The translations under genes and the position numbers were made by a program. Of a DNA stretch of 64,000 nucleotides, positions 34,044-49,896 are shown piece after piece; within the stretch, counting starts at the first letter, position 1, and the number at the start of each line of letters is the position of its first letter. Under the pieces are notes generated by a model. It saw nothing but the letters and a program-made list of their open reading frames with translations, searched no databases and was not told the origin of the DNA. The stretch comes from an uncultured Cellulomonas sp. (GTDB taxonomy: Bacteria > Actinomycetota > Actinomycetes > Actinomycetales > Cellulomonadaceae): NCBI RefSeq assembly GCF_947494015.1, contig NZ_CANLTL010000001.1, forward strand, positions 364,030-428,029, written 5' to 3'.

Positions 34044-35048
34044 TCAAGCCGGCGACACTCCTGCCCGGATCCCGCGCAGGACCGCGGTGGTGAGCGCTGC
34101 GCACAGTGCGACACCGAGCGCTCCGGTGATGCCGATGAACAGGTCGCTGCCGGCGCCGTAGTCCGCCAGCGGCGCGCCCGACCACGCGTGGTCGCGTGCT
34201 GCGTCGGCGAAGCCCACCGTCCGGGCGGTGGCTTCGAGCCCGTCCGGCGTCGAGGCCGCGAAGGGTGAGAGCGCGACAGCCGCGATCATCGCGATCGTGA
34301 GGGCGCCGCGACGAGCGACGGCGGACGGCGCGGCGCCGACGACCGGACCGGGCGCCGCGCCCGGCGCCGCGATCCCCGGTGCGACCGCGTGGGCCAGCGA
34401 CACCACCCCGGCGGTGATGGCCGCCTCGCCGACCCCGATCAGCAGGTGCACACCGACCATCTGGGACACGAGCCGACCGGCCGGGACCGGCACCGTGCCG
34501 CCGGCCGCGAAGAGCAGGGCGAACAGGGCTGCTGCGGAGACGACGCTGACCAGACCGCCCGCGGCAGCTGAGCACGCGAGCGCGTGGACGGCCCTCCGGC
34601 CTCGCACGCCATGGTGCACGAGCCGCGCCGTCGCCCATCCGACCAGCGTGCCGACGACCGCGATGAGCAGGACGTTCGGCCCGATCGCGGTGAGCCCACC
34701 GTCCGCGAACACCAGCGCCTGGACGAGCACGACGGCCGTGACGCTGAGCAGCCCGAGAGCCGGTCCGAGCAGGGAGGCGGCCAGGGCACCGCCGAGGAGA
34801 TGGCCGCTGGTCCCGCTCGCGACCGGGAAGTTGAGCATCTGCAGTCCGAACACCAACGCGGTGGTGGCCGCGGCGAGGCGCACCCTGGCTCGCACGACGG
34901 CGCGTCCGGCCACCTCGTCAGGTGCACAGGCGGTCAGCGCTGCCAGCTCGTCGCGACTGCGCCGCACAGCTAGGGCGACGACGACGCCGGCCGCTGCCGT
35001 GATGGCGACGGTCGTCTGAGGATCGAGGAAGTGGTCGGGCAGGTGCAC
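34044..35048 (-). CDS. nikMN: Nickel/cobalt ECF-type importer substrate component, NikM-NikN fusion
   Basis: 334-residue membrane protein combining a CbiM/NikM core with a C-terminal NikN/PDGLE domain. The N-terminus MHLPDHF supplies the metal-binding amino-terminal Met-His (His2), and SGTSGHLLGGALAA the second His (His83), as in known NikM proteins. PDGLEATARTVGF marks the NikN part, followed by a final membrane segment. GTG 35048 has GGAG 7 nt upstream. It lies 45 bp downstream of the larA-like gene on the same strand. No NikQ/NikO (T and A components) is in the window, so a shared energy-coupling module elsewhere is needed. Nickel rather than cobalt follows from the LarA partner. Confidence 0.9.
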   Translation of the reverse strand: MHLPDHFLDPQTTVAITAAAGVVVALAVRRSRDELAALTACAPDEVAGRAVVRARVRLAAATTALVFGLQMLNFPVASGTSGHLLGGALAASLLGPALGLLSVTAVVLVQALVFADGGLTAIGPNVLLIAVVGTLVGWATARLVHHGVRGRRAVHALACSAAAGGLVSVVSAAALFALLFAAGGTVPVPAGRLVSQMVGVHLLIGVGEAAITAGVVSLAHAVAPGIAAPGAAPGPVVGAAPSAVARRGALTIAMIAAVALSPFAASTPDGLEATARTVGFADAARDHAWSGAPLADYGAGSDLFIGITGALGVALCAALTTAVLRGIRAGVSPA

Positions 35049-35093
35049 GGGCGGTCTCCGATGAGCGACGGGAACTGGCCAGGGTGCCCGCGC

Positions 35094-36377
35094 TCAGCGC
35101 AGGCGGTACAGGACCTCGCCCGCCTGCGGGACGACGAGGGCGCCGGGGTCGGTGGCCCAGGCGTCGACGTCCACCTCGGCCGGGTCGAGGTAGTCGAGGT
35201 TGGCGGCACGCACCACGGCCTCGGGGATGCCGGTCGCGAGGGTCACGGTGACCCGGCACCGCTCGCCGTGCTCGTCGTCGTAGGTGCCCGCACCGCGCAG
35301 GTGCGTGGAATGAGCGAGGTCGCCCCACGGGGTGCCGGAGAACCGGTCCCACTGCTTCACGAAGTAGTCGCGGCAGTGGTACCCGATCTCCAGGATCTGC
35401 GGGTGCATCACCGAGATCTCGGTGATGTGCGGGGCGTACAGCACCACCTGACCGCCGTCGGCCACCACCGGCTCGACCTTGTAGAACCCCTTGGCCCCGG
35501 TCCACATGTCCTCGTACTTGGTCGGGATGATCGACAGCACGCGCTCCACCGGGGCGTCCAGGTAGGTCACGTGGGTCTGTGCCGAGACGTCCGCGGCCGC
35601 CGCCCACGACTCCTCGGGCGTCCCCCACGCCGCCGCGTGCAGCTCACCGGTCCCCGACTGGGCCACCACGCACAGCGCGTACCGTTCGCCAGGGACCAGG
35701 GACGCCGCCTCGTCGATCAGCGCCCGCACCGGGGTGATCCCGCGGGTGCCGATGATCTCCACGCTCGAGATCAGGGCGCCGAGCCAGTGCGAGACGTTGA
35801 TGACGTCCTTGACCGCCACCCCGGGGAACAGGTACTTGTTCCCGCCGGAGAAGCCCACCACCTCGTGCGGGAACACCGGACCGACGATCACGGTCACGTC
35901 GTGCTCGACCACCGCCCGGTTCAGCCGGACGTCGACCGGCCGCACCAGCCGCCCCTCGGACAGCTCCGCGAGCCGCTCGGCGCTGATGGTGCCCACCGAG
36001 GTGAACGTCCCCTCGTCCCACCACTCGTGGTTGAGCACCGTCATGCCCGGATAGGTGGCCTCCAGCTCACCGGGGGCGTACCCCAGGTGCCGCGCCAGGT
36101 CCGGCTCGGACATCGCCGCGTGCGTGCCGAGCGCGACGAGGACGGTCAGCCGGCTGACCCGTCCGTGCGCCGCGGCATGCACCGCGGACAGCAGCAGCGG
36201 CAGCGGGCAGCTGCGGGTGGCGTCCGGCACCAGCACGCACAGGCTGCGACCGTCCAGCTCGACCCCCGCCAGCTGCTCGGCCACGAACGTCCGCACGCTC
36301 GCGGGGTCGAGGACCTGGTCCGGTCCCCCGATCCGGGCGGCGGCGGACGTGGACGGCGAGACCCCGATGACGCTCAT
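35094..36377 (-). CDS. larA: LarA-family nickel-pincer racemase/epimerase
   Basis: 427-residue homologue of nickel-dependent lactate racemase, which moves a hydride at the C2 hydroxy group of a 2-hydroxy acid using the nickel-pincer nucleotide. Key residues by comparison with Lactiplantibacillus plantarum LarA: Asp52/Arg55 (PDATR), His86 (ALGTHAAMS), His171, Lys181 (PHEVVGFSGGNKYLFPG) and His197 (NVSHW). The 10- and 16-residue spacings between the last three equal those of His174, Lys184 and His200. It is divergent from uxaC across a shared operator and followed by nikMN; larE and larB are at 48-50 kb. Context favours a sugar-acid epimerase, for example mannonate/gluconate, over lactate. ATG 36377 has GAGG close upstream. 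Confidence 0.9.
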   Translation of the reverse strand: MSVIGVSPSTSAAARIGGPDQVLDPASVRTFVAEQLAGVELDGRSLCVLVPDATRSCPLPLLLSAVHAAAHGRVSRLTVLVALGTHAAMSEPDLARHLGYAPGELEATYPGMTVLNHEWWDEGTFTSVGTISAERLAELSEGRLVRPVDVRLNRAVVEHDVTVIVGPVFPHEVVGFSGGNKYLFPGVAVKDVINVSHWLGALISSVEIIGTRGITPVRALIDEAASLVPGERYALCVVAQSGTGELHAAAWGTPEESWAAAADVSAQTHVTYLDAPVERVLSIIPTKYEDMWTGAKGFYKVEPVVADGGQVVLYAPHITEISVMHPQILEIGYHCRDYFVKQWDRFSGTPWGDLAHSTHLRGAGTYDDEHGERCRVTVTLATGIPEAVVRAANLDYLDPAEVDVDAWATDPGALVVPQAGEVLYRLR

Positions 36378-36440
36378 GGCCTCAGCGTGCGCCGCCGTGA
36401 CGTCCGGGGCAACGCCGGGCGGAGCGGCACGACGGGCGCG

Positions 36441-36468
36441 GCGACAACTGGCGGCAATCGGTTGTCGC
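36441..36468. promoter_or_regulatory. Operator between larA and uxaC
   Basis: Exact 8-bp arms GCGACAAC (36441-36448) and GTTGTCGC (36461-36468). The right part also contains GGCAATCGGTTGTC (36453-36466), a CG-centred palindrome of the same type as the sites next to lacI/gnd and dctP. It lies 63 bp from larA and 30 bp from uxaC, so one bound repressor would cover both promoters. Confidence 0.65.
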
Positions 36469-36498
36469 TCGCAGAGGCCGCCGCCGACACTCACCGCC

Positions 36499-37920
36499 AT
36501 GACGAGCCCGACGCCGCGCCTCGCGCTGCACCCTGACCGCCTGCTGCCCACCGAGCCCAGCACCCGCGAGGTGGCGCGACGGCTGTACGGGGCGGTCCGG
36601 GACCTGCCGATCATCTCCCCGCACGGCCACGTCGACCCCGGCACCCTGCTGCACGACACCCCGTTCGCCGATCCGGCCGCGCTGTTCGTCACCCCCGACC
36701 ACTACGTGACCCGCCTGCTGCACGCGTCCGGTGTCCGGCTGGACGACCTCGGCGTGGGCCGGGGCCCGCTGGCCGAGGACGAGGCCCGGGCGGTGTGGCG
36801 CCGGTTGTGCTCGCACTGGGACGCGTTCCGCGGGACCCCCGTGCGCTACTGGCTGGAGAGCGAGCTGGCGGACATCTTCGAGGTGACCGTCCGGCCGTCC
36901 GCGGACACCGCCGACGACATCTACGACACCATCGCCGACCGGCTGGCACGCCCCGAGTACCGCCCGCGTGCGCTGTACGAGCGGTTCGGCATCTCCCTGC
37001 TGGCGACCACCGACGACCCCGTCGACGACCTCGCCGCGCACGCCGCCCTCGCGGCGGACCCGACGTGGCACGGCCGGGTCATCCCCACCTTCCGCCCCGA
37101 CCGGTACCTCGAGGTGGGGACACCGGGATGGGCCGGCCACGTCACCCGGCTCGGGGAGTCCGCCGGCGTCGACACCGGGACCCTTGCCGGGTGGATCGCG
37201 GCGATGGAGGCCCGCCGGACCCACTTCGCCGAGCACGGGGCGCGGTCCAGCGACCACAGCCACGAGGACGTCGGGACCCAGCCGCTGGACGCCGCCGAGG
37301 CGGAGCGGATCTACCGGGCCGGTGTCGCGGGGACGGCCCGCGTCGACGAGGCGGTCGCGCTGCGGCGTCACCTGCTGCTGGAGATGGCCCGGATGGCCAC
37401 CGAGGACGGCCTGACCATGACGCTCCACCCGGGCGTGCGCCGCGGCCACCACGGCCCGACGCTGCGCAGCTTCGGTCCGGACACGGGCCACGACATCCCG
37501 CTGCGGGGGGACTTCACCGACCCGCTGCGCCCCCTGCTCGAGCGGTTCGGCACGCACCCGAACCTGCGTCTGGTGCTGTTCACGCTCGACGAGACGGTGT
37601 TCTCCCGCGAGCTCGCGCCGCTCGCCGGCTTCTACCCCTCGGTGTACGTCGGCGCCCCGTGGTGGTTCCTGGACGCCCCCGAGGCGGTGCGCCGGTGGCG
37701 GTCCGCCGTCACCGAGTCCGCCGGCCTGTCCAAGACGTCGGGGTTCATCGACGACACCCGGGCGTTCTGCTCCATCCCGGCCCGGCACGACATGGCCCGC
37801 CGGCTCGACAGCGGCTTCCTCGCCCAGCTCGTCACCGAGCACCGGCTCGACGAGGACGAGGCGCTCGCCGCCGCGGTCGACCTGGTCAGCGGCCGCCCCC
37901 GCGAGGTGTTCGGCCTGTGA
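36499..37920 (+). CDS. uxaC: Glucuronate/galacturonate isomerase
   Basis: 473-residue uronate isomerase, converting D-glucuronate to D-fructuronate (or galacturonate to tagaturonate). The metal-dependent amidohydrolase-like barrel begins with LPIISPHGHVDPGTLL (His pair); later family motifs are WDAFRGTPVRYWLES, HPGVRRGHHGPTLR, VLFTLDETVFSRELAPLAGF, YVGAPWWFLDAPE and SKTSGFIDDTRAFCSIPARH. Length is normal. ATG 36499. The stop overlaps the uxuB GTG start by 4 nt, making a uxaC-uxuB-gntK operon. Likely controlled by the palindrome at 36441-36468. Confidence 0.95.
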   Translation: MTSPTPRLALHPDRLLPTEPSTREVARRLYGAVRDLPIISPHGHVDPGTLLHDTPFADPAALFVTPDHYVTRLLHASGVRLDDLGVGRGPLAEDEARAVWRRLCSHWDAFRGTPVRYWLESELADIFEVTVRPSADTADDIYDTIADRLARPEYRPRALYERFGISLLATTDDPVDDLAAHAALAADPTWHGRVIPTFRPDRYLEVGTPGWAGHVTRLGESAGVDTGTLAGWIAAMEARRTHFAEHGARSSDHSHEDVGTQPLDAAEAERIYRAGVAGTARVDEAVALRRHLLLEMARMATEDGLTMTLHPGVRRGHHGPTLRSFGPDTGHDIPLRGDFTDPLRPLLERFGTHPNLRLVLFTLDETVFSRELAPLAGFYPSVYVGAPWWFLDAPEAVRRWRSAVTESAGLSKTSGFIDDTRAFCSIPARHDMARRLDSGFLAQLVTEHRLDEDEALAAAVDLVSGRPREVFGL

Positions 37921-39275
37921 GCGGGCTTCATCGCGCGCGTCCGGCACCGCCCGTCCGGCACGTCCACCTGGGGCTCGGCAACTTCTTCCGCGCGCACCAG
38001 GCCTGGTACAGCCACCGCGCGCCCGACGCCGGTGACTGGGGGATCGCCGCGTTCACCGGCCGCAGTCCCGACCTGGCCGACGCCCTGTCCGCGCAGGACG
38101 GCCTGTACACCCTCGACGTCCGGGGCCCGGACGGGGACCGGTTCGAGCTCGTCGAGTCGGTCGTCGCCGCCCACGCGGCCACGGACCACGTCGCGTGGCT
38201 GCGCTACCTCGCCGACCCGGACGTCCGGGTCGTCACCTCGACCGTCACCGAGGCGGGGTACCTGCGCGCGGGTGGCGGTGTCGACACGTACCGCGCCGAC
38301 GTCCGCGCCGACGTCCAGGCCCTCCGAGACGACGCCTCGGCCTCCGTCCGCACCGTCCCCGCCCGGCTGGTCGCGGGTCTGCTCGCCCGGCGGGCCGCCG
38401 ACGCCGGACCGCTGTCGATCGTGCCGTGCGACAACCTGCCCGACAACGGCGCCGCGGTCCGCCAGGCGGTCCAGGGTCTGGCCGCGCTCGTCGACCCCTC
38501 CCTGGTGGGCTGGATCGAGGACGAGGTGAGCTGGGTGACCACCATGGTGGACCGCATCACCCCCGAGCCGACGGTGGACGACGTCGCCCTGGTCCGCACC
38601 GCGACGGGCACCGACGACCGCGCACCGGTGGTGACCGAGCCCTTCAGCGAGTGGGTGCTCAGCGGCGACCTCCGCGCCGGAGCCCCCGACTGGGGTGCGG
38701 CCGGCGTCGTCCTCACCGACGACGTCACGCCGTTCGAGGCACGCAAGCTCGGCCTGCTGAACGGCGCGCACTCGCTGCTCGCCTACGCCGCGCCGCTGCG
38801 CGGTCACGTCACGGTCGGCGAGGCGATCGCCGACGACGTGTGCCGGGACTGGGTCGAGCAGTGGTGGGACGAGGTCTCCCGGCACCTGAGCCTGCCCGCC
38901 GACGACGTCGCCGCGTACCGGGCGGCACTGACCGCGCGGTTCGAGAACCCCGCCATCCGTCACCGGCTCGACCAGATCGCGGCCGACGGCTCCCAGAAGG
39001 TGCCCGTGCGGTTCCTGCCCACCGTGCGCCTCGAGCGCGCCGCCGGCCGGCTGCCCGACGGCGGCCTGCGTGCCGTCGCGGCGTGGGTGCTGCACCTGCG
39101 CGGGGACGGCGTCCCGGTCACCGACGCGGCCGGCGGCGACGTGGTGCGGCTGGCCTCCGGGACGCTCGAGCAGGCGGTGCCACGGGTCGTCCGGGCACTG
39201 GACGTCGCGCTGGCCGACGACGACGCGGTGCTCGCTGCCGTCGTCGCGCACGCGCGCGACCTGGCGCCACGATGA
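37917..39275 (+). CDS. uxuB: Fructuronate reductase (mannitol dehydrogenase family)
   Basis: 452-residue polyol-type long-chain dehydrogenase, reducing D-fructuronate to D-mannonate with NADH. The N-terminal cofactor motif is VHLGLGNFFRAHQAWY. PCDNLPDNGAAVR and the catalytic cluster Lys277, Asn282, His285 in ARKLGLLNGAHSLL are intact. GTG 37917 overlaps the uxaC stop and its own stop overlaps the kinase ATG (ATGA). The family also contains mannitol and arabinitol dehydrogenases; tight coupling to uxaC makes fructuronate reductase the best call. No uxuA (mannonate dehydratase) follows, where it would be expected in a classical pathway. Confidence 0.87.
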   Translation: MSGLHRARPAPPVRHVHLGLGNFFRAHQAWYSHRAPDAGDWGIAAFTGRSPDLADALSAQDGLYTLDVRGPDGDRFELVESVVAAHAATDHVAWLRYLADPDVRVVTSTVTEAGYLRAGGGVDTYRADVRADVQALRDDASASVRTVPARLVAGLLARRAADAGPLSIVPCDNLPDNGAAVRQAVQGLAALVDPSLVGWIEDEVSWVTTMVDRITPEPTVDDVALVRTATGTDDRAPVVTEPFSEWVLSGDLRAGAPDWGAAGVVLTDDVTPFEARKLGLLNGAHSLLAYAAPLRGHVTVGEAIADDVCRDWVEQWWDEVSRHLSLPADDVAAYRAALTARFENPAIRHRLDQIAADGSQKVPVRFLPTVRLERAAGRLPDGGLRAVAAWVLHLRGDGVPVTDAAGGDVVRLASGTLEQAVPRVVRALDVALADDDAVLAAVVAHARDLAPR

Positions 39276-40840
39276 CCGCGGTCCGCCCACCGCACGCCCG
39301 GCCCGCCGAGCCCGCCCGGCGCCCGCACCGCGTCATCATCGGCGTGGACGTCGGCACGACCGCCGCGAAGGTCGTCGCCTTCGGTGTGGACACCCTCTGG
39401 CGGCACGTCGCGGTGCGCGAGTACCCGCTGCTCGAGCCGGTGGCGGGCCAGGCGGTGCAGGATCCCGACGTGGTGGTCGAGGCGATGCTCGCTGCCCTGT
39501 CGGACTGCGTGGCCGCGTCGGCCGGGACCGAGGTGATCGGTGTGTCGGTGAGCGCGGCGATGCACGGGCTCGTCGGGCTCGACGCCGCCCTGCGGCCCCT
39601 GACGCCCCTGGTCACCTGGGCGGACGGTCGCGCGATCGACGTCTCCCGGGGGCTGCGGGCCGCCGGTCTGGCCGCCGAGCTCCACGCCGCGACCGGCACG
39701 CCGGTGCACCCGATGTCGCCGCTCACCAAGCTCGTGTGGTTCGCCCGTCACGAGCCCGCCGTGTGGACCGCCACCCGGTGGTGGGTCGGCCTGAAGGACC
39801 TGGTCCTGCACCGCCTCACCGGCGAGCTCGTCACCGAGCTGTCGTCGGCGTCGGCGACCGGGCTGATGGACCTGCGCAGCCGTGGGTGGAGCCCTGCCGC
39901 CGTCGACCTGTCGGGCGCCCGCCCGGACCAGCTGCCACCGATCCTGCCGACCACCGCGGTGCGCGGCCTGGCACCCGACGTCGCGTCGCGGGTCGGCCTG
40001 CCCGCGGGGACCCCGGTGGTCCTCGGGGCGGCCGACGGGCCACTGGGCAACCTGGGGACGGGCGCCATGAGCCCCGGGGTGGTGGGCATGTCGCTCGGCA
40101 CCTCCGGGGCGGTCCGCACGATCGTCGAGGCGCCGCCGGCGGCACTGCACCCGGCGCTGTTCTGCTACGCCCTGACGGAGTCGGCGTGGGCCGTCGGCGG
40201 CGCGGTGAGCAACGGCGGCATCGTCGTGCGCTGGGCCGGGGAGAGCCTCGCCCCCGACCTCGACGGCGTCCCGGGTGGAGCCACCGCCGACGAGCGCCTG
40301 CTCGACCTCGCCGCGTCGGTCCCCCCGGGTAGCGACGGGCTGCTCATGCTCCCGTACCTGCTGCCCGAACGCGCCCCGCTCTGGGACCCGGACCTGAGCG
40401 GGGCGCTGTGGGGGCTGCGCCGTCGCCACACCCGTGCCCACGTGGTCCGGGCGGCCGTCGAGGGGGTCGCCCTGCAGCTGGCGAGCATCGTGGACACCAT
40501 CGACGCGGTGGTCCCCGTGACCTCGGTCCGGGCCACCGGTGGGGCTCTGCGGTCGCCCGTGTGGCGCCACGTGCTGGCGGCGGTGCTCGGACGTCCGCTC
40601 GTGGTGGCCGGCGCCGCCGAAGGGTCGGCACTGGGCGCCGCGGCGCTCGGGCTGCACGCCCTGGGCCACGCCCCCGTGCTCGCCGAGGCGACCGCCATGC
40701 TCTGCGGGCCGGCAGCGCACGCGACCGACTCCGTCCCGACCGACCGGGACGCCGCGGCCGTCTACACCCGCACCCGGGCGGTGCTGCCCGAGCTGCTCCG
40801 GGCGATGGCCACGACCGACGCCATCCTGGCCGGCCGCTGA
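39272..40840 (+). CDS. gntK: Gluconokinase (FGGY family)
   Basis: 522-residue carbohydrate kinase phosphorylating D-gluconate to 6-phosphogluconate. The ATPase-fold N-domain has IGVDVGTTAAKVVAFG and VSVSAAMHGLVGLD. The gluconokinase-like segment TPVHPMSPLTKLVWFARHEP, shared with Bacillus GntK, separates it from xylulokinase and glycerol kinase. Catalytic Asp255 lies in GAADGPLGNLGTGAMS. The C-domain has GVALQLASIVDTI and RATGGALRSPVW. ATG 39272 overlaps the uxuB stop. A gluconate kinase as third gene of a uronate operon is unusual and is the main clue that mannonate is turned into gluconate here. Confidence 0.87.
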   Translation: MTAVRPPHARPAEPARRPHRVIIGVDVGTTAAKVVAFGVDTLWRHVAVREYPLLEPVAGQAVQDPDVVVEAMLAALSDCVAASAGTEVIGVSVSAAMHGLVGLDAALRPLTPLVTWADGRAIDVSRGLRAAGLAAELHAATGTPVHPMSPLTKLVWFARHEPAVWTATRWWVGLKDLVLHRLTGELVTELSSASATGLMDLRSRGWSPAAVDLSGARPDQLPPILPTTAVRGLAPDVASRVGLPAGTPVVLGAADGPLGNLGTGAMSPGVVGMSLGTSGAVRTIVEAPPAALHPALFCYALTESAWAVGGAVSNGGIVVRWAGESLAPDLDGVPGGATADERLLDLAASVPPGSDGLLMLPYLLPERAPLWDPDLSGALWGLRRRHTRAHVVRAAVEGVALQLASIVDTIDAVVPVTSVRATGGALRSPVWRHVLAAVLGRPLVVAGAAEGSALGAAALGLHALGHAPVLAEATAMLCGPAAHATDSVPTDRDAAAVYTRTRAVLPELLRAMATTDAILAGR

Positions 40841-40892: not shown

Positions 40893-42203
40893 TCAGGCCG
40901 ACAGCCCGCCGGCCCGGGACGGACGCGCACCGGACCCGTCCGCGACGGGCTCGGGCTGCCCGTCGGCGGCGTCCTCACCCCAGTCCCCGCGTCGGGCGTG
41001 CACCCGGCTGCGCAGCGCGAGCAGCCCACCGCCGAGCACCGCTGCCAGCAGCGACCCCGCCAGCACGGCGGCCTTGACCGCCTCGTGGCGCTCGTCCCCG
41101 CCGAACGAGAGCTCGGCGATGAGCAGGGACACCGTGAAGCCCATGCCGGCGACGACGGAGACCGCGCCCACGTCCCACCAGGACAGCCCGCGCCCGAGCG
41201 TGGCGTGCGTGAACCGCACGAGCAGCGCGGTCGCCAGCAGGATCCCGAGCGGCTTGCCCACGACGAGGCCCAGGACGACCCCCTGCGCCGCGGGGTCCGT
41301 GACGGCACGGCCGAGCGCTGCCGGGTCGAGGCTGACCCCGGCGGCGAAGAACGCGAACACCGGCACGGCGAGCCCGGCCGACACCGGACGCCAGCGGTGC
41401 TCCAGCCGCTCCGCGGCGCTCATCCCGCGTCCGTGCTGAGCCAGCGCCGGGACGGTGAACCCGAGCAGGACGCCGGCGATGGTGGAGTGGACCCCGGACG
41501 CGTGCATGGCCGCCCACGCGAGGACCGCCAGGGCGACCAGGACGACGCCGGGGACCTTCCCGCTGCGGACAGCGGCGCCGAACAGGGCGATGACCGCCGC
41601 GCTGGCGACCAGCCAGCCGAGCTGCAGCCCGTGGCTGTAGAAGATCGCGATGACGACGATCCCGAGGAGGTCGTCGACCACCGCCAGGGTCAGCAGGAAG
41701 GCGCGTAGCGCCAACGGCAGCCGGCTGCCTGCGGCGGCGAGCACCGCCACCGCGAAGGCGATGTCGGTGGCCACCGGCACGGCCCAGCCCTGTGGCGCAC
41801 CGTCGGCGGCGAGCGCGTTCACCGCGGAGTAGACCAGCGCGGGGACGACCATGCCGCCGACCGCGGCGACGATGGGGACGATCGCCGACGACGGTCGGCG
41901 CAGCTCGCCGGTGACGACCTCCCGCTTGAGCTCGAGGCCGACGACGAAGAAGAAGATGGCCAGCAACCCGTCGGTGGCCCAGTGCGCGACGGTCAGGTCC
42001 AGACCGATCGCAGCCGGCCCGACGACGGTCCCGGCCAACGCCTGGTACGTCTCACGCCACGGCGAGTTCGCCCAGACCAGCGCCGCGACCGTGGCCAGCA
42101 GCAGCAGCCTGACCGCCGCGGACTCCGTGCGGAGCGTGTCGGAGAGGTTGGCCGCACCGCCGGGGCTGAGCGGGGAGAAGAGCGAGCGTGGCTGGGACGG
42201 CAT
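40893..42203 (-). CDS. nhaA: Na+/H+ antiporter NhaA
   Basis: 436-residue integral membrane antiporter with about 12 segments. Family motifs: FFFVVGLELKREVVTGEL, the discontinuous-helix region VPVATDIAFAVAVLA, and the paired Asp ion site in LTLAVVDDLLGI. C-terminal GMGFTVSLLIAELSFG is also typical. The C-terminal tail of about 40 residues is polar. It converges on gntK and sits between that operon and the TRAP genes. It might support sodium-coupled TRAP uptake, by position only; TRAP importers use a sodium gradient. ATG 42203. Confidence 0.94.
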   Translation of the reverse strand: MPSQPRSLFSPLSPGGAANLSDTLRTESAAVRLLLLATVAALVWANSPWRETYQALAGTVVGPAAIGLDLTVAHWATDGLLAIFFFVVGLELKREVVTGELRRPSSAIVPIVAAVGGMVVPALVYSAVNALAADGAPQGWAVPVATDIAFAVAVLAAAGSRLPLALRAFLLTLAVVDDLLGIVVIAIFYSHGLQLGWLVASAAVIALFGAAVRSGKVPGVVLVALAVLAWAAMHASGVHSTIAGVLLGFTVPALAQHGRGMSAAERLEHRWRPVSAGLAVPVFAFFAAGVSLDPAALGRAVTDPAAQGVVLGLVVGKPLGILLATALLVRFTHATLGRGLSWWDVGAVSVVAGMGFTVSLLIAELSFGGDERHEAVKAAVLAGSLLAAVLGGGLLALRSRVHARRGDWGEDAADGQPEPVADGSGARPSRAGGLSA

Positions 42204-42341: not shown

Positions 42342-43652
42342 TCAGGTTCCCAGCAGGCCCAGCTGCGTCGGCAGCCAGGTGGACAGCTGCGGCACGAACA
42401 CCACCAGGAACAGCCCCACGACGAGCGCGAGGAGGAACGGCAGCAGCTTGGAGATCACCGGCTCGATCCGTAGCCCGCCGACGCGTGCCGCGACGAACAG
42501 GACGTTGCCGACCGGGGGTGTGATGACGCCGACGCACAGGTTGTAGACGAGCATCGTCCCGAAGTGCACCGGGTCGATGCCGAACTCCAGCGCGATGGGC
42601 AGGAAGATCGGCGTGAAGATGAGGATCGCCGGCGTGGGGTCCATGAACGTCCCGACGACCAGCAGGATCACCATCATGATGAGGAGGATGGCCGTCGGGT
42701 TGCTCGTCAGGGCCAGCATCCCGTCCGAGATGATCTCCGGGATCCGGGCGAACGACATGATGAACGACAGCGCGGAGGACACCCCGACGAGCAGCATGAC
42801 GATCGCCGTGGTCCGTGCCGACTCCAGCAGGATCCCGGGCAGGGCCTTGACCTTGAGCATGCGGTACGCGAACCCGAGGACGAGGCAGTAGACGACGGCG
42901 ATCGCCGCGGACTCGGTGGCCGTGAAGAGCCCGGTCAGGATGCCGCCGATCACGATGATGATCATGAGCAGCGACGGGACGGCCTTCCACAGCACCACCA
43001 GGGCCTGCCGGAACGAGACCCGCCCGGTGCTCTTGAGCTCCGGACGCTTGCGGACGTACAGCCAGACGACGACCATGCACGCGCCGGTCCAGACCAGGCC
43101 GGGCCCGATGCCGGCCATGAAGAGGGCGGCGATCGAGGTGCTGCTGACCAGTGAGTACACGATGAACGTGTTGCTCGGCGGGATCAGCATCCCGGCGGGC
43201 GCCGACGCCGCGTTGACCGCCGCCGAGAAGCTGCGGTCGTAGCCCTCCTCGCGCTGCCGGGGACCCATGACCGTGCCCACAGCAGCCGCCGCGGCGACCG
43301 CGGCGCCGCTGACCGCGCCGAACATGGCGTTGGCCACGACGTTGGTCTGCGCCAGCGAGCCCGGCGCCTTGCCGACGAGGACCTTGGCGGCGTCGATCAG
43401 CCGCCCGGCGATCCCGCCGTTGTTCATCAGGACGCCGGCGAGCACGAAGAAGGGGATCGCGAGCAGCGGGAAGGAGTTGATGCCGGTGAACATCCGCTGG
43501 GAGCTGGCCAGCACGGCACCCTCGACCCCGAGCAGCGCGATGGCGGCGAAGATTGCGGACAGGCCGATGGCGACGGCGATCGGCACGCTGAGCGCGATCA
43601 TCGCGACGATGCCGACGAGCAGGATGAGCCCTGCGAGCGATGCGGGTTCCAC
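42342..43652 (-). CDS. dctM: TRAP transporter large membrane subunit
   Basis: 436-residue DctM protein, the transport channel of a sodium-driven TRAP importer. About 12 hydrophobic segments; family motifs include LLAIPFFVLAGVLMNNGGIA, GAVSGAAVAAAAAVG, ASAPAGMLIPPSNTFIVYS and VGTFMDPTPAILIFTPIFLP. GTG 43652 has AGGAGA upstream. It starts 8 nt after the dctQ stop, last gene of dctPQM. A GC-rich hairpin region follows at 42270-42330. Context points to uronates or related sugar acids. Confidence 0.94.
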   Translation of the reverse strand: MEPASLAGLILLVGIVAMIALSVPIAVAIGLSAIFAAIALLGVEGAVLASSQRMFTGINSFPLLAIPFFVLAGVLMNNGGIAGRLIDAAKVLVGKAPGSLAQTNVVANAMFGAVSGAAVAAAAAVGTVMGPRQREEGYDRSFSAAVNAASAPAGMLIPPSNTFIVYSLVSSTSIAALFMAGIGPGLVWTGACMVVVWLYVRKRPELKSTGRVSFRQALVVLWKAVPSLLMIIIVIGGILTGLFTATESAAIAVVYCLVLGFAYRMLKVKALPGILLESARTTAIVMLLVGVSSALSFIMSFARIPEIISDGMLALTSNPTAILLIMMVILLVVGTFMDPTPAILIFTPIFLPIALEFGIDPVHFGTMLVYNLCVGVITPPVGNVLFVAARVGGLRIEPVISKLLPFLLALVVGLFLVVFVPQLSTWLPTQLGLLGT

Positions 43653-43660
43653 GGTGTCTC

Positions 43661-44167
43661 CTAGATCGCGTCGTCGACGTCGGACGCGTCGGTGGCCACC
43701 TCGTCACCGCGAAGGACCGCGGTGACGTGGTAGAGCGCGTAGATGACGATCAGGGTGCCGGTGACCGGCATGACGAGGTACATCTTCCCGATCTGGGTGG
43801 GCAGCGCGGTGAGGTTGGTCGCCCACGTCCCCTGGGCGGCGCGCCAGCCGCCCCAGACCAGGCCGATCCCCGCGAACGCGATGATCGCGACCTGGACCAG
43901 GACGGCCACGGCGCGCTCGATCCCGCGCGGCAGCTTCCGGACGAGGAAGTCCACGGCGATGTGCCCGCGCTCGGAGAACACCAGCGCGGCGGCGAAGAAG
44001 CCGAGCCACACGAAGATGTAGCGGGCCGCCTCCTCCGACCAGGTGCTCGGGTCGCCGATCACCTGCCGGCTGAACACCTGCCACACGACGTCCAGCACCA
44101 GGACCGCGAAGAGCACGACGCAGGCCGCAGCGAGGACCTTGTCGAGGACGTTCTTCAGCGTGCGCAC
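43661..44167 (-). CDS. dctQ: TRAP transporter small membrane subunit
   Basis: 168-residue DctQ protein with four membrane segments (VLAAACVVLFAVLVLDVVWQ first). The family motif VFSRQVIGDPSTWSEEAARY, then IFVWLGFFAAALVFSERGHI, is intact. I chose the GTG at 44167 (start VRTLKNVLDK) because a GGGAGG lies 8 nt upstream of it; the in-frame GTG at 44176 would overlap that ribosome binding site. Middle gene of dctPQM. Confidence 0.88.
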   Translation of the reverse strand: MRTLKNVLDKVLAAACVVLFAVLVLDVVWQVFSRQVIGDPSTWSEEAARYIFVWLGFFAAALVFSERGHIAVDFLVRKLPRGIERAVAVLVQVAIIAFAGIGLVWGGWRAAQGTWATNLTALPTQIGKMYLVMPVTGTLIVIYALYHVTAVLRGDEVATDASDVDDAI

Positions 44168-44209
44168 ACCGGTCACCTCCCTTCCTTCACTCGTCCGGAC
44201 AGCCGCGGG

Positions 44210-45244
44210 TCACTCGGCCGCGGCGCGCGCGGCGTCGTACAGGGCCTGCTGCGTCTCGTTCGTGATGAACTCCTCCGCCAGCGGCTCCAGCACGGAGCGG
44301 AACGCCTCGGTGTCGACGTCGGTGAAGGTCGCGCCGCCGGCCTCGGCCTGGGCGATGGCGTCCTCGGTGGCGGTCTGCCAGAGGTCGGTGTGCTCCTCGT
44401 GCGCCGCGGTCCACTCGGCGTCGAACGCCTCGCGGTCCTCCGGCGACATGCCCTCGAGGACGTCGGTGTTGATGACGAGGTAGTCCAGGCCCACCAGGTG
44501 GTTGGTGTTGGAGAAGTACGGCGCGACCTCGTAGTGCTTCTGCGTGAAGTACGAGACCTCGTTGTTCTCCGCGGCGTCCACCACGCCGGACTGCAGACCC
44601 GTGTAGAGCTCGCCGAAGGCCATCGGGGTGGCCGACGCGCCCATGGCCTCGGCCATCGCGATGTGCAGGTCGCTCTCCTGGACCCGCAGCTTCTTGCCGG
44701 CGAGGTCCTCCGGCGTCTCGACCGGCGCGTCCGTGGTGTAGACGCTGCGCGTGCCCTGCGTGAAGCCGCCCAGGACGGTGACGTTGTTGCTCTCCTCGAG
44801 CGAGGAGTACAGGTCGCCGACGATCTCCTCGTCGTGGATGACGCGCATCTGGTGCTCGACGGAGTCGAACACCTGCGGCAGGTTGAACACCAGGAAGTCC
44901 TCGTTGAGGTTCTCCAGCTGCGTCCCCGAGACGATGGCCATGTCCACCGTGCCGTCGCTGACGAGCTGCAGGGCCTCCTGCTGGGCTCCCAGGGTCTCGT
45001 TCGGGTAGACGTCGATCGAGTAGCGGCCGTCGGTGGCCTCCTCGAGCCGCTCACCGAAGTTGTCCAGCGCGATGAACGACGGGTGCTCCTCGGTCTGGTT
45101 CAGCGCGAGCCGCAGGGTGGCGCCCTCGCCGGAGGTGGTCGTCCCGCCCGCGTCGGTGTCCGCGTCGCCGCCGCCGCACGCGGAGAGCGTGAGAGCGGTG
45201 ACGCCGACCAGAGCGGTCGCGGCGAGTCGTCGAGTGGTCTTCAT
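44210..45244 (-). CDS. dctP: TRAP transporter substrate-binding lipoprotein
   Basis: 344-residue extracytoplasmic receptor. A signal peptide ends in the lipobox LTLSAC, then an acidic Gly/Thr linker. DctP fold motifs: HPSFIALDNFGERLEEATDG, VYPNETLGAQQEALQLVSDG, the carboxylate-binding Arg in GKKLRVQESDLH, MAFGELYTGLQSGVVDAAEN and the Asn/Glu pair following. An anionic sugar acid such as glucuronate is the probable ligand, given the conserved Arg and the uronate genes around it. ATG 45244. A perfect palindrome 218 bp upstream suggests LacI control. Confidence 0.93.
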   Translation of the reverse strand: MKTTRRLAATALVGVTALTLSACGGGDADTDAGGTTTSGEGATLRLALNQTEEHPSFIALDNFGERLEEATDGRYSIDVYPNETLGAQQEALQLVSDGTVDMAIVSGTQLENLNEDFLVFNLPQVFDSVEHQMRVIHDEEIVGDLYSSLEESNNVTVLGGFTQGTRSVYTTDAPVETPEDLAGKKLRVQESDLHIAMAEAMGASATPMAFGELYTGLQSGVVDAAENNEVSYFTQKHYEVAPYFSNTNHLVGLDYLVINTDVLEGMSPEDREAFDAEWTAAHEEHTDLWQTATEDAIAQAEAGGATFTDVDTEAFRSVLEPLAEEFITNETQQALYDAARAAAE

Positions 45245-45461: not shown

Positions 45462-45481
45462 GATGGCAACCAGTTGCCATC
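45462..45481. promoter_or_regulatory. Operator upstream of dctPQM
   Basis: Exact 9-bp arms GATGGCAAC (45462-45470) and GTTGCCATC (45473-45481) with a 2-nt centre. Another half-site GGTTGCCG follows directly (45482-45489). It lies between the lacI stop and the dctP start in a 288-bp gap that otherwise carries only the dctP promoter region. Confidence 0.7.
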
Positions 45482-45532: not shown

Positions 45533-46615
45533 TTACGCCGTGCCGGACGGGTCGGTCCGACCCGCGGTGGCGCGCGAGGCCGACACCCAGGCGCTGCTCC
45601 GGCGCACCTTGCGGGTGGTGGACCCGCGCACGACGAGCTGCGCCGGCAGCAGCGCCGGGCGGACCAGGACGGGAGCCCGCGTGGCCATCTGGTCGAGCAG
45701 CGCGCGCACCGCGAAGGAGCCCAGCCGCCGCAGCGGGGCGGCGACCGTCGTCAACGGGGGCGTGCAGAAGTCGGACCCGAAGATGTTGTCGAAGCCGACC
45801 ACGCTGACGTCCTCCGGCAGCCGGGCACCCATGCGGGCCAGGCCGCGCATCATGCCGATCGCCACCAGGTCGTTGTAGGCGATCGCCGCGCTGCTCGGCT
45901 GCTGGCGCAGCTTCTCGGCCGCCGCCAGCCCGCCGGCCAGCGTCGGTGCGAACGGGCCCAGCCGCCGCACCTTGATGTCGAGCTCGAACGCCGCCTCGCG
46001 CATGGAGCGCCACCGCATGCCGTCGACCCAGGACGCCTCCGGTCCGGCGACATAGGTCAGCGTGGTGTGCCCCAGCTCGGCCAGGTGCTCCACGGCGCGG
46101 CGCATCCCGCGCGGGTTGTCGGTGACCACGCTGGGCAGGTCCGTCACGACCCGGTTCAGGACCACGGTCGGTCGTTGCTTCGCCGCGACCCGGATGGCGG
46201 AGTCCGACATGCGCGACGTCGCGAGCACCAGACCCTCGACGAGCGGGAGCGTGCGGTTCAGCGCCTGCCGCTCGGCCTCCACCGACTCCTGGGCGTCCAC
46301 CACGAGCATGGTGTAGCCGCCCTCGCTCGCCGCCTCCTCCGCACCGCGGATGATCTCGAAGAAGAACGGGTTGGTGGCGTCGGCGATGACCAGCGCGAGC
46401 AGGTCCGTCTTGCCGGTCGGCAGCGCCCGCGCCAGCGGGTTGGTGCGGTAGCCGAGCTCCGCGGCGACCGTGCGGATCCGCTCGGCCGTCTCGGCATTGA
46501 CCCGGCCCGGACGGGAGAACGCCCTCGAGACGGTCGACGGCGCCACCCCGCACGCGAGTGCGACGTCGTAGATGGTCGGCTGCGTCCGTGCCTGCCTGGC
46601 CGGCTTCTCCTCCAT
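45533..46615 (-). CDS. LacI-family regulator of the uronate/gluconate genes
   Basis: 360-residue repressor. The HTH is TIYDVALACGVAPSTVSRAF (residues about 14-33) followed by the hinge NAETAERIRTVAAELGYRTN; the sensor domain runs to VSVVGFDNIFGSDFCTPPLT. It lies between dctP and gnd and is flanked on both sides by palindromes of the GGCAAyCGrTTGCC type, as expected for autoregulation and control of neighbours. ATG 46615 is chosen over upstream codons because family proteins begin shortly before the HTH. The inducer is likely a uronate, mannonate or gluconate (inference). Confidence 0.93.
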   Translation of the reverse strand: MEEKPARQARTQPTIYDVALACGVAPSTVSRAFSRPGRVNAETAERIRTVAAELGYRTNPLARALPTGKTDLLALVIADATNPFFFEIIRGAEEAASEGGYTMLVVDAQESVEAERQALNRTLPLVEGLVLATSRMSDSAIRVAAKQRPTVVLNRVVTDLPSVVTDNPRGMRRAVEHLAELGHTTLTYVAGPEASWVDGMRWRSMREAAFELDIKVRRLGPFAPTLAGGLAAAEKLRQQPSSAAIAYNDLVAIGMMRGLARMGARLPEDVSVVGFDNIFGSDFCTPPLTTVAAPLRRLGSFAVRALLDQMATRAPVLVRPALLPAQLVVRGSTTRKVRRSSAWVSASRATAGRTDPSGTA

Positions 46616-46642: not shown

Positions 46643-46666
46643 CGGGCGGCAATCGGTTGCTGCCCG
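46643..46666. promoter_or_regulatory. Operator 1 between lacI and gnd
   Basis: A 24-bp CG-centred palindrome with 20 of 24 positions symmetric. The core is GGCAATCGGTTGCT (46648-46661), flanked by CGGGC and GCCCG. It lies 28 bp upstream of the lacI start and suits autoregulation. Confidence 0.7.
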
Positions 46667-46694: not shown

Positions 46695-46708
46695 GGCAAC
46701 CGTTTGCC
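46695..46708. promoter_or_regulatory. Operator 2 between lacI and gnd
   Basis: GGCAACCGTTTGCC, CG-centred, with symmetric outer GGCAA/TTGCC. It lies 47 bp from operator 1 centre to centre and 129 bp upstream of gnd. An extra half-site GGCAAC is at 46685-46690. Confidence 0.65.
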
Positions 46709-46836: not shown

Positions 46837-48324
46837 ATGACCAGTGCCCACTCCCGGACCGCTGCCCCCTCCGCGGTCACCGGTGACCGCGCAGCTGCGC
46901 AGATCGGTGTGACCGGCCTGGCCGTGATGGGCCGGAACCTGGCTCGCAACTTCGCCCGGCACGGGTACACGGTGGCGGTGCACAACCGGTCGTACGCCAA
47001 GACGCGGTCGCTGGTGGCCGATCACGGGGATGAGGGCACGTTCGTGGCGTCGGAGTCGATGGCGGACTTCGTGGCGTCGTTGGAGCGGCCGCGCAAGGTC
47101 GTGATCATGGTCAAGGCCGGTGGGCCCACGGACGCGGTGATCGCCGAGCTGGTGCCGCTGCTGGAGGAGGGCGACATCGTCATCGATGCCGGCAACGCCC
47201 ACTTCCCGGACACGATCCGCCGTGAGCGGGAGCTGGCGGCTCACGGCCTGCACTTCGTGGGGTCCGGGGTGTCGGGCGGTGAGGAGGGGGCGCTGAACGG
47301 GCCGTCGATCATGCCCGGCGGGTCGCGGGAGTCCTACACGGTGCTCGGGCCGATCCTGGAGGACATCTCGGCGAAGGTCGACGGGACCCCGTGCTGCACG
47401 TACATCGGTCCGGACGGTGCCGGGCACTTCGTGAAGATGGTGCACAACGGCATCGAGTACGCCGACATGCAGCTGATCGCCGAGGCGTACGACCTGCTCA
47501 AGCAGGGGCTGGGGGCGTCGGCTGCCGAGATCGGGCAGATCTTCGCGGACTGGAACACCGGGGACCTGGAGTCGTTCCTGATCGAGATCACCGCCGAGGT
47601 GCTGGCGCACGTGGACGCCGACACCGGGCGGGCGTTCGTCGACGTCGTCGCCGACCGCGCCGAGCAGAAGGGCACCGGGCGGTGGACGGTGCAGAACGCC
47701 CTGGACCTGGGGGTGCCGATCACCGGCATCGCCGAGGCCACGTTCGCCCGGGCCCTGTCCGGGTCGACCCCGCAGCGGTCCGCCGCGGTGGGGGTGCTGC
47801 CGGCGCACACCTCGACCTGGGACGTCACCGACCGGGACGCGTTCATCGAGGACGTGCGCCTGGCGCTGTACGCCTCGAAGGTCGTGGCGTACTCCCAGGG
47901 GTTCGACCAGATCGCGGCCGCGTCGGCGGAGTTCGGGTGGGACATCGACCGCGGGGCGATGGCGCGGATCTGGCGCGGGGGCTGCATCATCCGGGCCCGG
48001 TTCCTCAACCGGATCACCGAGGCCTACGAGCGCACCCCCGACCTGCCGCTGCTGCTGGCCGACGAGTACTTCACCGGCGCGGTCGGCAACGGCGTCGCGG
48101 CCTGGCGGCGCATCGTGGCCTCCGCCGCGCAGAACGGGGTGCCGGTGCCGGCGTTCTCCTCCTCGCTGGCCTACTACGACGGGGTCCGCGCCGAGCGGCT
48201 GCCCGCCAACCTCATCCAGGCCCAGCGCGACTTCTTCGGCGCCCACACCTACGCCCGCACCGACCGCCCCGGCACCTTCCACACCGAGTGGACGCTCGAC
48301 CGCACCGAGACGTCGGAGCGGTGA
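46837..48324 (+). CDS. gnd: 6-phosphogluconate dehydrogenase, decarboxylating
   Basis: 495-residue enzyme turning 6-phosphogluconate into ribulose 5-phosphate and CO2 with NAD(P)+. An N-terminal tail of about 20 residues precedes the Rossmann motif VTGLAVMGRNLARNFARHGY. DAGNAHFPDT, the substrate-binding FVGSGVSGGEEGALNGPSIM and the catalytic Lys200 in GHFVKMVHNGIEYADMQ are intact, as is the C-terminal QAQRDFFGAHTY. ATG 46837 has GAAGGA upstream. It heads an operon with larE and larB (stop to larE ATG: 2 nt), directly linking gluconate metabolism with nickel-pincer cofactor synthesis. Confidence 0.95.
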   Translation: MTSAHSRTAAPSAVTGDRAAAQIGVTGLAVMGRNLARNFARHGYTVAVHNRSYAKTRSLVADHGDEGTFVASESMADFVASLERPRKVVIMVKAGGPTDAVIAELVPLLEEGDIVIDAGNAHFPDTIRRERELAAHGLHFVGSGVSGGEEGALNGPSIMPGGSRESYTVLGPILEDISAKVDGTPCCTYIGPDGAGHFVKMVHNGIEYADMQLIAEAYDLLKQGLGASAAEIGQIFADWNTGDLESFLIEITAEVLAHVDADTGRAFVDVVADRAEQKGTGRWTVQNALDLGVPITGIAEATFARALSGSTPQRSAAVGVLPAHTSTWDVTDRDAFIEDVRLALYASKVVAYSQGFDQIAAASAEFGWDIDRGAMARIWRGGCIIRARFLNRITEAYERTPDLPLLLADEYFTGAVGNGVAAWRRIVASAAQNGVPVPAFSSSLAYYDGVRAERLPANLIQAQRDFFGAHTYARTDRPGTFHTEWTLDRTETSER

Positions 48325-48326
48325 GC

Positions 48327-49190
48327 ATGGAGCTGGGCCAGGCCGTGCCCGTGGACCCGCAGGACGTCGCCGCGGTCGACGCCGTCCTGGTGGCGCTTCG
48401 CGCCGCGGTCGGTCCCGGTCGGCTCGGGGTGGCGTTCTCCGGTGGGGTGGACTCCTCGGTGCTGCTCGCCCTCGCGGTGCGCGCGCTGGGACCCACGGGG
48501 GTGGTCGCCGTCCTCGGGGTGTCCCCGAGCCTCGCGCAGGAGGAGCGGGTCGCCGCCCACGAGGTGGCGCGCGCCGTCGGTGCGCCGGTGGTGGAGGTGC
48601 GAACGGCCGAGGGCGACAACCCGGACTACCGCCGCAACGGGCCCGACCGCTGCTACTTCTGCAAGGACGAGCTCTTCGCGACGATCGACCGCGAGCTGGC
48701 GACCGCGCACGGCCTGTCGGTCGTCGCGTACGGGGAGAACGCCGACGACACCCGGCGTCCGGACCGGCCCGGCGCGCGCGCCGCGACCGAGCACGCGGTC
48801 CTGCGACCGCTCGCCGACGCCGGGATGGACAAGGCGGCCGTGCGCCGCGTCGCCCGACGGCTCGGGCTGCCGTCGGCCGACAAGCCCGCCGCACCCTGCC
48901 TCGCCTCCCGCATCCCGCACCAGCAGGAGGTGACCCCGCAGAAGCTCGCGCAGGTGGAGGCCGCCGAGGCCGAGCTGCGCCGACTGGGCCTGGGCGACCT
49001 GCGGGTGCGCCACCACGGCGACGTCGCCCGACTGGAGCTGCCCCTGGAGCAGATCACCGCCATCGTCGCCGAGCCACTGCGAGGCGAGGTGCTGCGATCG
49101 GTCCGTTCGGCGGGGTTCCAGTTCGTGGCGCTCGACCTGGCCGGCATCCAGTCCGGTGCCTTCACCCTGCCGCTGGTGACCCGTGGCTGA
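48327..49190 (+). CDS. larE: LarE, ATP-dependent sulfur transferase of nickel-pincer cofactor synthesis
   Basis: 287-residue PP-loop enzyme that adenylates the pyridinium dicarboxylate nucleotide and inserts sulfur to form the thiocarboxylates that bind nickel. The PP-loop is FSGGVDSS (residues 37-44). Cys191 in PAAPCLASRIPH corresponds to the sacrificial Cys176 of L. plantarum LarE. Cys109 and Cys112 (RCYFCKDELF) add a CxxC, so three Cys are available. ATG 48327 has GGAG 9 nt upstream; a GTG at 48321 overlapping the gnd stop is the alternative. It overlaps larB by 8 nt. Clear family match. Confidence 0.93.
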   Translation: MELGQAVPVDPQDVAAVDAVLVALRAAVGPGRLGVAFSGGVDSSVLLALAVRALGPTGVVAVLGVSPSLAQEERVAAHEVARAVGAPVVEVRTAEGDNPDYRRNGPDRCYFCKDELFATIDRELATAHGLSVVAYGENADDTRRPDRPGARAATEHAVLRPLADAGMDKAAVRRVARRLGLPSADKPAAPCLASRIPHQQEVTPQKLAQVEAAEAELRRLGLGDLRVRHHGDVARLELPLEQITAIVAEPLRGEVLRSVRSAGFQFVALDLAGIQSGAFTLPLVTRG

Positions 49191-49896
49191 TCGCTGGACA
49201 CCCGCCGAGCCGCTGGCCCGCTACGCCACGCTCGACCACGACCGGGCGGGCCGCCGTGGCTACCCCGAGGCCGTCCTGTGCGAGAGCAAGACGGTCGACC
49301 AGCTCACCGGCATCGCCCGCGAGATCCGCCGGCGCCAGGCACGGACCCTGTTCACCCGGGTCCGGCCGGAGCAGGCCGAGGCGCTGCTCACCGAGCTGCC
49401 CGGTGCCGCGCACCACACCGCCGCCCGGATCGTGGCCTGGCCCGGGCAGCCACCGGCCGGCGCCGGCGGGCTCGTCGTCGTGGTGGCGGCCGGGACCTCG
49501 GACCTGCCGGTGGCCCACGAGGTGGCGGTGACCGCCGAGCACCTGGGTCGCCGCTGCCGCACCGTGGTCGACGTCGGCGTGGCCGGCCTGCACCGGGTGC
49601 TCGCGCACCTCGACCTGCTGCGTTCGGCGCGCGCGGTCGTCGTGGTCGCCGGCATGGACGGTGCGCTGCCCGGTGTCGTGGCCGGACTGGTCAGCGCTCC
49701 GGTCATCGCCGTGCCGACCTCCGTCGGCTACGGCGCCTCCTTCGGCGGCATCGCCGCGCTGCTCACCATGCTCAACGCGTGCGCACCCGGCGTCGCGGTC
49801 GTGAACATCGACAACGGGTACGGGGCCGGCCACCTCGCAGCCCAGGTCAGCGCGCCCGTCGATCCGTCCCGCGAGGGGACTACCGAGCCGGCTTGA
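49183..49896 (+). CDS. larB: LarB, pyridinium-3,5-biscarboxylate mononucleotide synthase
   Basis: 237-residue PurE-like carboxylase/hydrolase that acts first in nickel-pincer cofactor synthesis, on nicotinic acid adenine dinucleotide. Family motifs: RRGYPEAVLCESKTVDQLTG, VVVAAGTSDLPVAHEVA, VDVGVAGLHRVLAHLDLL, VVVVAGMDGALPGVVAGLV, PTSVGYGASFGGIAALLTML and NIDNGYGAG. GTG 49183 overlaps the larE stop by 8 nt. LarC, the nickel-insertion enzyme, is not in the window. The 3' end overlaps the convergent DUF3140 gene by 17 bp. Confidence 0.93.
   Translation: MADRWTPAEPLARYATLDHDRAGRRGYPEAVLCESKTVDQLTGIAREIRRRQARTLFTRVRPEQAEALLTELPGAAHHTAARIVAWPGQPPAGAGGLVVVVAAGTSDLPVAHEVAVTAEHLGRRCRTVVDVGVAGLHRVLAHLDLLRSARAVVVVAGMDGALPGVVAGLVSAPVIAVPTSVGYGASFGGIAALLTMLNACAPGVAVVNIDNGYGAGHLAAQVSAPVDPSREGTTEPA

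Follow-up and report, generated by a model that had tools for sequence, protein, structure and literature searches.

A predicted glucuronate-use regulon with a putative LarA-family mannonate/gluconate 2-epimerase in an uncultured Cellulomonas

In Thermotoga maritima the operon aldH-pelB-gnd-uxaRED-gntEK belongs to the UxaR regulon (excerpts of PMC3750489), and the proposal that mannonate is converted to gluconate in this organism is credited to Rodionova and others, 2012, in the cited part of PMC6978723, which also notes homologues in Lactobacillus, Acidobacterium and Terriglobus; PMC7583248, in the sections cited here, likewise refers to an earlier hypothesis for this branch. The same sections report, in 2020, that the T. 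maritima enzyme GntE2 acts on D-mannonate with a Michaelis constant (KM) of 17 mM and a turnover number (kcat) of 197 per s and that GntE1 of Corynebacterium glutamicum epimerises D-mannonate with a KM of 120 mM, and a third GntE has been reported from Phytophthora (excerpt of PMC11770544). The mannonate-to-gluconate branch is not mentioned in the accessible part of the hexuronate review PMC6353982, and in the open-licence literature we found no paper on an actinobacterial glucuronate version of the route. Here we analyse a window of 64,000 nucleotides from an uncultured Cellulomonas sp. (G000:C1:364030-428029; genome of 4.28 Mb in 44 contigs), in which a larA homologue lies beside uxaC, uxuB, gntK and gnd genes. 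A preliminary description of this DNA held that no pathway with such a gene set had been described, a view that does not survive comparison with the Thermotoga operon (PMC3750489), the 2012 proposal (PMC6978723) and the 2020 assay (PMC7583248), as far as the excerpts of these papers go. Judging from its sequence, the locus is probably a glucuronate-use regulon in which a LarA-family epimerase turns D-mannonate to D-gluconate.

The larA homologue and its neighbouring genes

Along the locus, two minus-strand genes (nikMN-type and larA) are followed by uxaC-uxuB-gntK on the plus strand, then by a gene for NhaA, the TRAP transporter genes, lacI, and gnd-larE-larB on the plus strand. Overlaps of 4 bp each join uxaC to uxuB and uxuB to gntK, and gnd overlaps larE by 4 bp and larE overlaps larB by 8 bp. 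larA diverges from uxaC and is followed, 45 bp behind it on the same strand, by the CbiM/NikMN-type gene, and the genes for DctM, DctQ and DctP as well as lacI are placed between the gntK and gnd operons. This is the arrangement given in the preliminary description, which had reported two overlapping operons, a divergent larA with nikMN behind it and a TRAP transporter and LacI gene in between. uxaC, gnd, larE and larB exceeded curated NCBIfam cut-offs; uxuB, gntK and the CbiM-type gene scored below theirs and were named from match and context. For the UxuB-like protein the best NCBIfam model was D-arabinitol 4-dehydrogenase (250 bits), with fructuronate reductase at 219 bits (cut-off 603), both below cut-off. 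The best solved relative of the GntK-like kinase is 3gbt, 'Gluconate kinase' (E 1.4e-84), and no thermoresistant-type gluconokinase was matched in the source genome.

The closest solved relative of the LarA homologue is 4nar (E 1.1e-53; next best 3.5e-06), which is T. maritima GntE2 according to the cited sections of PMC7583248. Using the residue list and loop signature of section 8 of that paper, with correspondence read from the 4nar and 9eid alignments, we found the equivalents of the LarA catalytic and cofactor-binding positions D72, R75, H108, H174, K184, H200 and K298 invariant across 14 aligned actinobacterial sequences. The loop P-H-E-V-V-G-F-S-G-G is invariant in these 14 sequences as well, 4nar having P-H-E-S, so that the LarA homologue conforms to the loop part of the E-V/S signature reported for groups 18-20. 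The best NCBIfam model was the group-18 putative hexonate epimerase NF052594, whose cut-off of 500 bits, compared with a score of 150 bits, places the homologue outside group 18 itself by NCBIfam; a lactate or malate racemase was rejected too, as those models gave only 59-89 bits and the hexonate model 150 bits, none of them reaching its cut-off. By phylum and context the homologue is a candidate for group 19, and the C. glutamicum GntE1 sequence was not among the best 80 or 120 matches listed. For LarA, an AlphaFold prediction based on 14 closely related sequences reached a mean predicted local distance difference test score of 68.

Besides LarB and LarE in the locus the genome encodes LarC on another contig (C3:369830-370996), and thus all three known genes for the nickel-pincer cofactor are present. 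LarE carries a CXXC motif and a third cysteine, a pattern tied to the iron-sulfur LarE of T. maritima in the excerpt of PMC9283937, which suggests that LarE of the locus is of the iron-sulfur type. The CbiM/NikMN-type protein is probably the nickel supply of the locus; no recognised T or ATPase partner was found among the neighbouring open reading frames scanned, the genome not having been searched for partners.

Shared palindromes and conservation of the neighbourhood

A palindrome is shared by three intergenic regions of the locus, from which we predict one LacI-type regulator over the whole set. The pattern GGCAAYCNNTTGYC has four exact matches genome-wide, three of them in the locus, and the reversed pattern gives two. 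The fourth exact match is located at C10:17956, where the surrounding 3 kb hold no clear gene by codon composition. As the pattern was derived from the locus, its three hits there are not an independent test; its enrichment in relatives is. With the scan anchored at the start of the tblastn match rather than at a verified start codon, 25 of 90 locus rows, or 23 of 85 distinct loci once five duplicate rows are removed, had the 12-base core in the 250 bp preceding the larA match. Its density was 0.99 sites per kb upstream of larA versus 0.031 per kb in the remainder of these loci.

To describe the neighbourhood we used the best 80 of at least 588 relatives from a scan of named genomes, 79 with actinobacterial record names and one (L119) named as Chloroflexi, and counted neighbours by tblastn within fetched flanks of up to 10 kb, with self-chosen bit-score thresholds and references from the family Cellulomonadaceae. 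uxaC and uxuB each lie near larA in 41 of the 80, followed by lacI (36), larE (34), larB (31), larC (29), the beta-glucuronidase gene uidA (17), gnd (15), FGGY gntK (12), uidB (5) and a KDG-kinase-like gene (5; KDG, 2-keto-3-deoxygluconate). DctM and DctP were counted in three relatives each, DctQ in two, ManD, Eda and UxaA in one each, and uxuA in none of the 80. In 32 relatives uxaC is directly divergent from larA, the matches being 73-241 bp apart. Altogether, at least one uronate or gluconate gene is found near larA in 57 of the 80 and a cofactor gene in 35; since the arrangement recurs in many genera it is unlikely to have arisen by chance. The single relative with ManD, KDPG aldolase (KDPG, 2-keto-3-deoxy-6-phosphogluconate) and UxaA-like genes near larA is L068, Geodermatophilaceae bacterium URHB0062.

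Within the family, ten other loci (L022-L031) contain uxuB in six cases, larE with larB in five and gnd in three. In G005 a contig (L032) that starts with uxaC-uxuB-gntK-lacI-larE-larB looks continuous with the larA-bearing contig end L029. All four glycoside hydrolase family 2 (GH2) proteins tested, from L022, L023, L025 and L031, scored above the cut-off for beta-glucuronidase, and a transporter from L022, the only one tested, scored above that for glucuronide transporters, pointing to glucuronides as a source of the uronate. G008 has a further Lar_N protein of a different kind (125 bits; L021, G008:C1:1880000-1899900), close to which lie a larE and a larB of its own.

UxuA (PF03786) was not found anywhere in the source genome. 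Of 150 genomes of the family, 117 have a match to UxaC, 64 to UxuA, 82 to ManD and 12 to Lar_N proteins; none of the 12 LarA genomes has UxuA and all 12 have UxaC. LarA and UxuA alternate within the genera g1, g8 and g16. The hypergeometric probability of the exclusion is 8.9e-4 for the 150 genomes and 4.5e-5 for the 117 with UxaC, and the within-genus product is 8e-4 among the genus members listed, relatedness being ignored in all three values. In G047, which gave no UxaC match, UxuA is matched only by a fragment, and the LarA match of G026 is partial and no more than a candidate for the GntE type; the other ten LarA proteins are 68-85% identical to that of the window. A class-wide sample of 394 genomes, with LarA in 18 and UxuA in 22 (20 over cut-off) and no genome in both lists, was dropped as support for the exclusion, as only about one overlap is expected and the sample is therefore uninformative.

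The proposed route and its alternatives

From these observations we infer substrates, direction, regulator and metal as follows. The TRAP transporter would take up uronate, UxaC would convert glucuronate to fructuronate, the UxuB-like enzyme would turn fructuronate into mannonate, and the LarA/GntE protein would invert C2 to give gluconate. The GntK-like kinase would then yield 6-phosphogluconate, from which Gnd would form ribulose 5-phosphate, CO2 and NADPH, bringing the carbon into the pentose phosphate pathway. LarB and LarE from the locus and LarC from the other contig would build the cofactor, the CbiM/NikMN-type protein may bring the nickel, and the parts would be induced jointly through the LacI-type palindromes of the three intergenic regions. 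In the source genome this branch would run alongside a ManD/KDG route, not in its place. The preliminary description had drawn the same path from glucuronate to ribulose 5-phosphate, and homology, the shared palindromes and the conserved gene order support it.

Several findings weigh against this assignment. The source genome encodes two ManD, a KDPG aldolase, a KDG-kinase-like gene, a second uxaC and a second UxuB-like reductase, and the earlier claim that the locus bypasses KDG chemistry and renders uronate use nickel-dependent fails on these genes. A source genome without KDG chemistry is ruled out by the two ManD, the KDPG aldolase and the KDG-kinase-like gene, and an obligate bypass by the two ManD and the aldolase; with KDG-route genes elsewhere in the genome the epimerase route may be optional there, and strict nickel dependence of uronate use in the source organism is not established. 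uxuA, kdgK and kdgA had all been described as absent, which holds genome-wide for uxuA; for kdgA and kdgK it holds only for the locus genes scanned and is wrong elsewhere in the genome, where the KDPG aldolase and the KDG-kinase-like gene were found. Further, ManD is present in 10 of the 12 LarA-bearing family genomes, and a KDPG-aldolase-family match in 11 of them, G066 being the exception. Co-occurrence of larA with uxaC and gntK without uxuA across the family, which the preliminary description had suggested as a check, was seen in part: LarA and UxuA never occur together in the 12 genomes, but within the stretches fetched uxaC was found in only four and FGGY gntK in only two of the ten other family loci. 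At the thresholds used, 23 of the 80 relatives have no uronate or gluconate gene near larA; some of these end at contig edges, and in others, Kribbella L079 among them, the neighbouring genes are unrelated. The kinase encoded behind uxuB in G066 (L025:5799-7292) belongs to the PfkB family, not to the FGGY GntK type. Finally, the KM values of the bacterial GntE enzymes for mannonate, 17 and 120 mM, are high, and PMC7583248, in the sections cited, expresses doubt that the C. glutamicum enzyme has mannonate as its native substrate.

The KDG-route genes are largely collected in a second uronate cluster, C1:92000-111900 (L020), which holds the KDG-kinase-like gene, the KDPG aldolase, the second uxaC, the UxuB-like reductase, an altronate/galactarate dehydratase-like gene, one ManD and two LacI genes; the other ManD is located at C1:254739-255947. 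The ManD proteins score 672 and 698 bits (equivalog cut-off 550), and one copy has Pro and the other Ala at a position said to distinguish enzymes of low from those of high efficiency. A role in the use of L-gulonate and L-idonate has been attributed to some ManD enzymes, and with such a possible role the presence of ManD is no proof that glucuronate carbon flows through KDG. In the genome-wide scan the palindrome pattern of the locus had no match near the ManD genes.

These genes, and the retention of ManD in most LarA-bearing family genomes, would fit a locus that feeds mannonate to KDG via ManD, the epimerase mainly routing gluconate in reverse or balancing pools. We regard this as unlikely, given that the gluconate-consuming genes gntK and gnd belong to the same apparent regulon, that ManD lies near larA in only one of the 80 relatives, and that G066 and G088 have neither a UxuA nor a ManD match. 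The order of epimerisation and phosphorylation might also be reversed: D-mannonate would first be phosphorylated by the GntK-like kinase, and 6-phosphomannonate would then be epimerised to 6-phosphogluconate, either by the LarA homologue or by a different enzyme. Extracts of Lactobacillus suebicus show this kinase-first order and formed no gluconate from mannonate alone (excerpt of PMC6978723), and the kinase family differs among loci, being FGGY in the source locus and PfkB in G066; yet GntE1, GntE2 and LarAH15 act on unphosphorylated mannonate (excerpts of PMC7583248 and PMC11770544), and the gene of the L. suebicus epimerase was not identified in the cited part of PMC6978723, so that we give this order little credence. 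Slimmer still is the chance that the epimerase acts on an aldarate or another uronate-derived acid, for instance from glucarate to mannarate: the authors of the GntE1 assay, with its KM of 120 mM for mannonate, proposed a uronic or aldaric substrate (PMC7583248, sections cited), whereas, among the neighbours counted, the recurrent partners of larA are those expected for making mannonate, uxaC and uxuB, and for consuming gluconate, gntK and gnd.

For the preferred conversion of mannonate to gluconate, G066 is the most telling relative. Its genome, in three contigs and rated 100% complete, holds uidA, uxuB, uxaC, larA, lacI, gnd, larE, larB and larC within about 14 kb, with a gluconokinase encoded away from the larA locus. 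Searches of it returned no match for UxuA (PF03786), ManD (E 1e-60) or KDPG aldolase (PF01081), IlvD/Edd-type dehydratases not being included. As these three were not detected, nickel dependence of glucuronate use is plausible in G066, which is the best case for an obligate epimerase route. In its widest form the proposal would be that a nickel-dependent pathway for glucuronides, under LacI control and with a LarA-type epimerase in place of mannonate dehydratase, is widespread in Actinomycetota, being the sole mannonate exit, and making growth on glucuronate strictly nickel-dependent, in lineages like G066, with D-mannonate as native GntE substrate, contrary to the published aldarate guess; we see the arguments for and against this extension as evenly balanced.

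If the assignment is correct, the route proposed for Thermotoga is distributed throughout actinobacteria, where neighbouring genes suggest glucuronide use, and ties the use of sugar acids to nickel supply. It would also offer a concrete test for the role of actinobacterial LarA-type epimerases, a question left open in 2020, and make genomes without UxuA interpretable, with the caution that a genome lacking UxuA need not lack mannonate dehydration, since ManD can substitute.

The coordinates of the genes and of the predicted operators are given in Table 1. The closest solved relative of DctP is 4n91. A gene for the Na+/H+ antiporter NhaA (Pfam, 422 bits; window 40893-42203, minus strand) separates gntK from the TRAP genes. 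Since many TRAP transporters are driven by sodium, a link between the two is possible. Outside the locus, two adjacent, similarly built proteins (window 24033-27149 and 27517-30600, plus strand) combine glycoside hydrolase family 3, fibronectin-like and S-layer homology domains.

Table 1. Genes and predicted operators of the locus, in window coordinates.
Feature	Position	Strand	Evidence
CbiM/NikMN-type energy-coupling metal uptake component	34044..35048	-	Pfam CbiM 134.7 bits, PDGLE
larA homologue, predicted D-mannonate/D-gluconate 2-epimerase, GntE-like nickel-pincer nucleotide enzyme	35094..36377	-	Pfam Lar_N
Palindrome GGCAATCGGTTGTC, predicted LacI-family operator, larA/uxaC intergenic	36453..36466	.	
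uxaC, glucuronate isomerase	36499..37920	+	NF002794 536 bits, cut-off 387
uxuB-like mannitol-dehydrogenase-family reductase, predicted fructuronate reductase	37917..39275	+	Pfam Mannitol_dh; 4 bp overlap with uxaC
gntK-like FGGY kinase, predicted gluconokinase	39272..40840	+	TIGR01314 best NCBIfam, 364 bits, cut-off 649
TRAP large membrane subunit DctM	42342..43652	-	Pfam DctM
TRAP small membrane subunit DctQ	43661..44176	-	Pfam DctQ
TRAP solute-binding protein DctP, predicted uronate importer component	44210..45244	-	Pfam DctP, NCBIfam TRAP_S1; start from sequence
Palindrome GGCAACCAGTTGCC, predicted LacI-family operator upstream of dctP	45465..45478	.	
LacI-family regulator, predicted repressor of whole locus	45533..46615	-	Pfam LacI, Peripla_BP_3; start from sequence
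Palindrome GGCAATCGGTTGCT, predicted operator, lacI/gnd intergenic	46648..46661	.	one mismatch to pattern
Palindrome GGCAACCGTTTGCC, predicted operator, lacI/gnd intergenic	46695..46708	.	
gnd, decarboxylating 6-phosphogluconate dehydrogenase	46837..48324	+	NF006765 747 bits, cut-off 413; TIGR00873 700 bits, cut-off 427
larE, sulfur insertase for nickel-pincer cofactor	48321..49190	+	TIGR00268 269 bits, cut-off 150
larB, carboxylase/hydrolase for nickel-pincer cofactor	49183..49896	+	NF033503 273 bits, cut-off 175

Comparison with known systems

In the UxuA pathway of Escherichia coli (UxaC-UxuB-UxuA-KdgK-KdgA) the first two steps are like those predicted here, but mannonate is dehydrated there, whereas it would be epimerised here. 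ManD, a member of the enolase superfamily encoded twice in the source genome outside the locus, also disposes of mannonate, but by dehydration to KDG. The galacturonate pathway of L. suebicus resembles the predicted route in that mannonate carbon reaches 6-phosphogluconate and not KDG, and differs in that phosphorylation precedes epimerisation (excerpt of PMC6978723). In C. glutamicum GntE1 is LarAH19, of group 19, and its describers did not settle on a native substrate (sections cited of PMC7583248).

In the Thermotoga branch a LarA-type GntE joins mannonate to gluconate, followed by GntK and Gnd, with a single local regulator over the set, as is predicted for the source locus. The source locus likewise brings together gntE, gntK, gnd and the mannonate-making enzymes, as judged by gene family, uxuB and gntK scoring below NCBIfam cut-offs. 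In Thermotoga, however, the genes serve pectin and galacturonate with UxaE and UxaD, and the same regulon contains a kdgA-kdgK-uxuB-uxuA operon, whereas the source set is tied to glucuronate and glucuronides in a genome without UxuA. Moreover, the Thermotoga operon, as named in the excerpt, shows no larB or larE, whereas the source locus has larE, larB and the CbiM/NikMN-type gene. Thus, the actinobacterial, glucuronide-linked version with cofactor genes in the same apparent regulon is a new form of a known branch.

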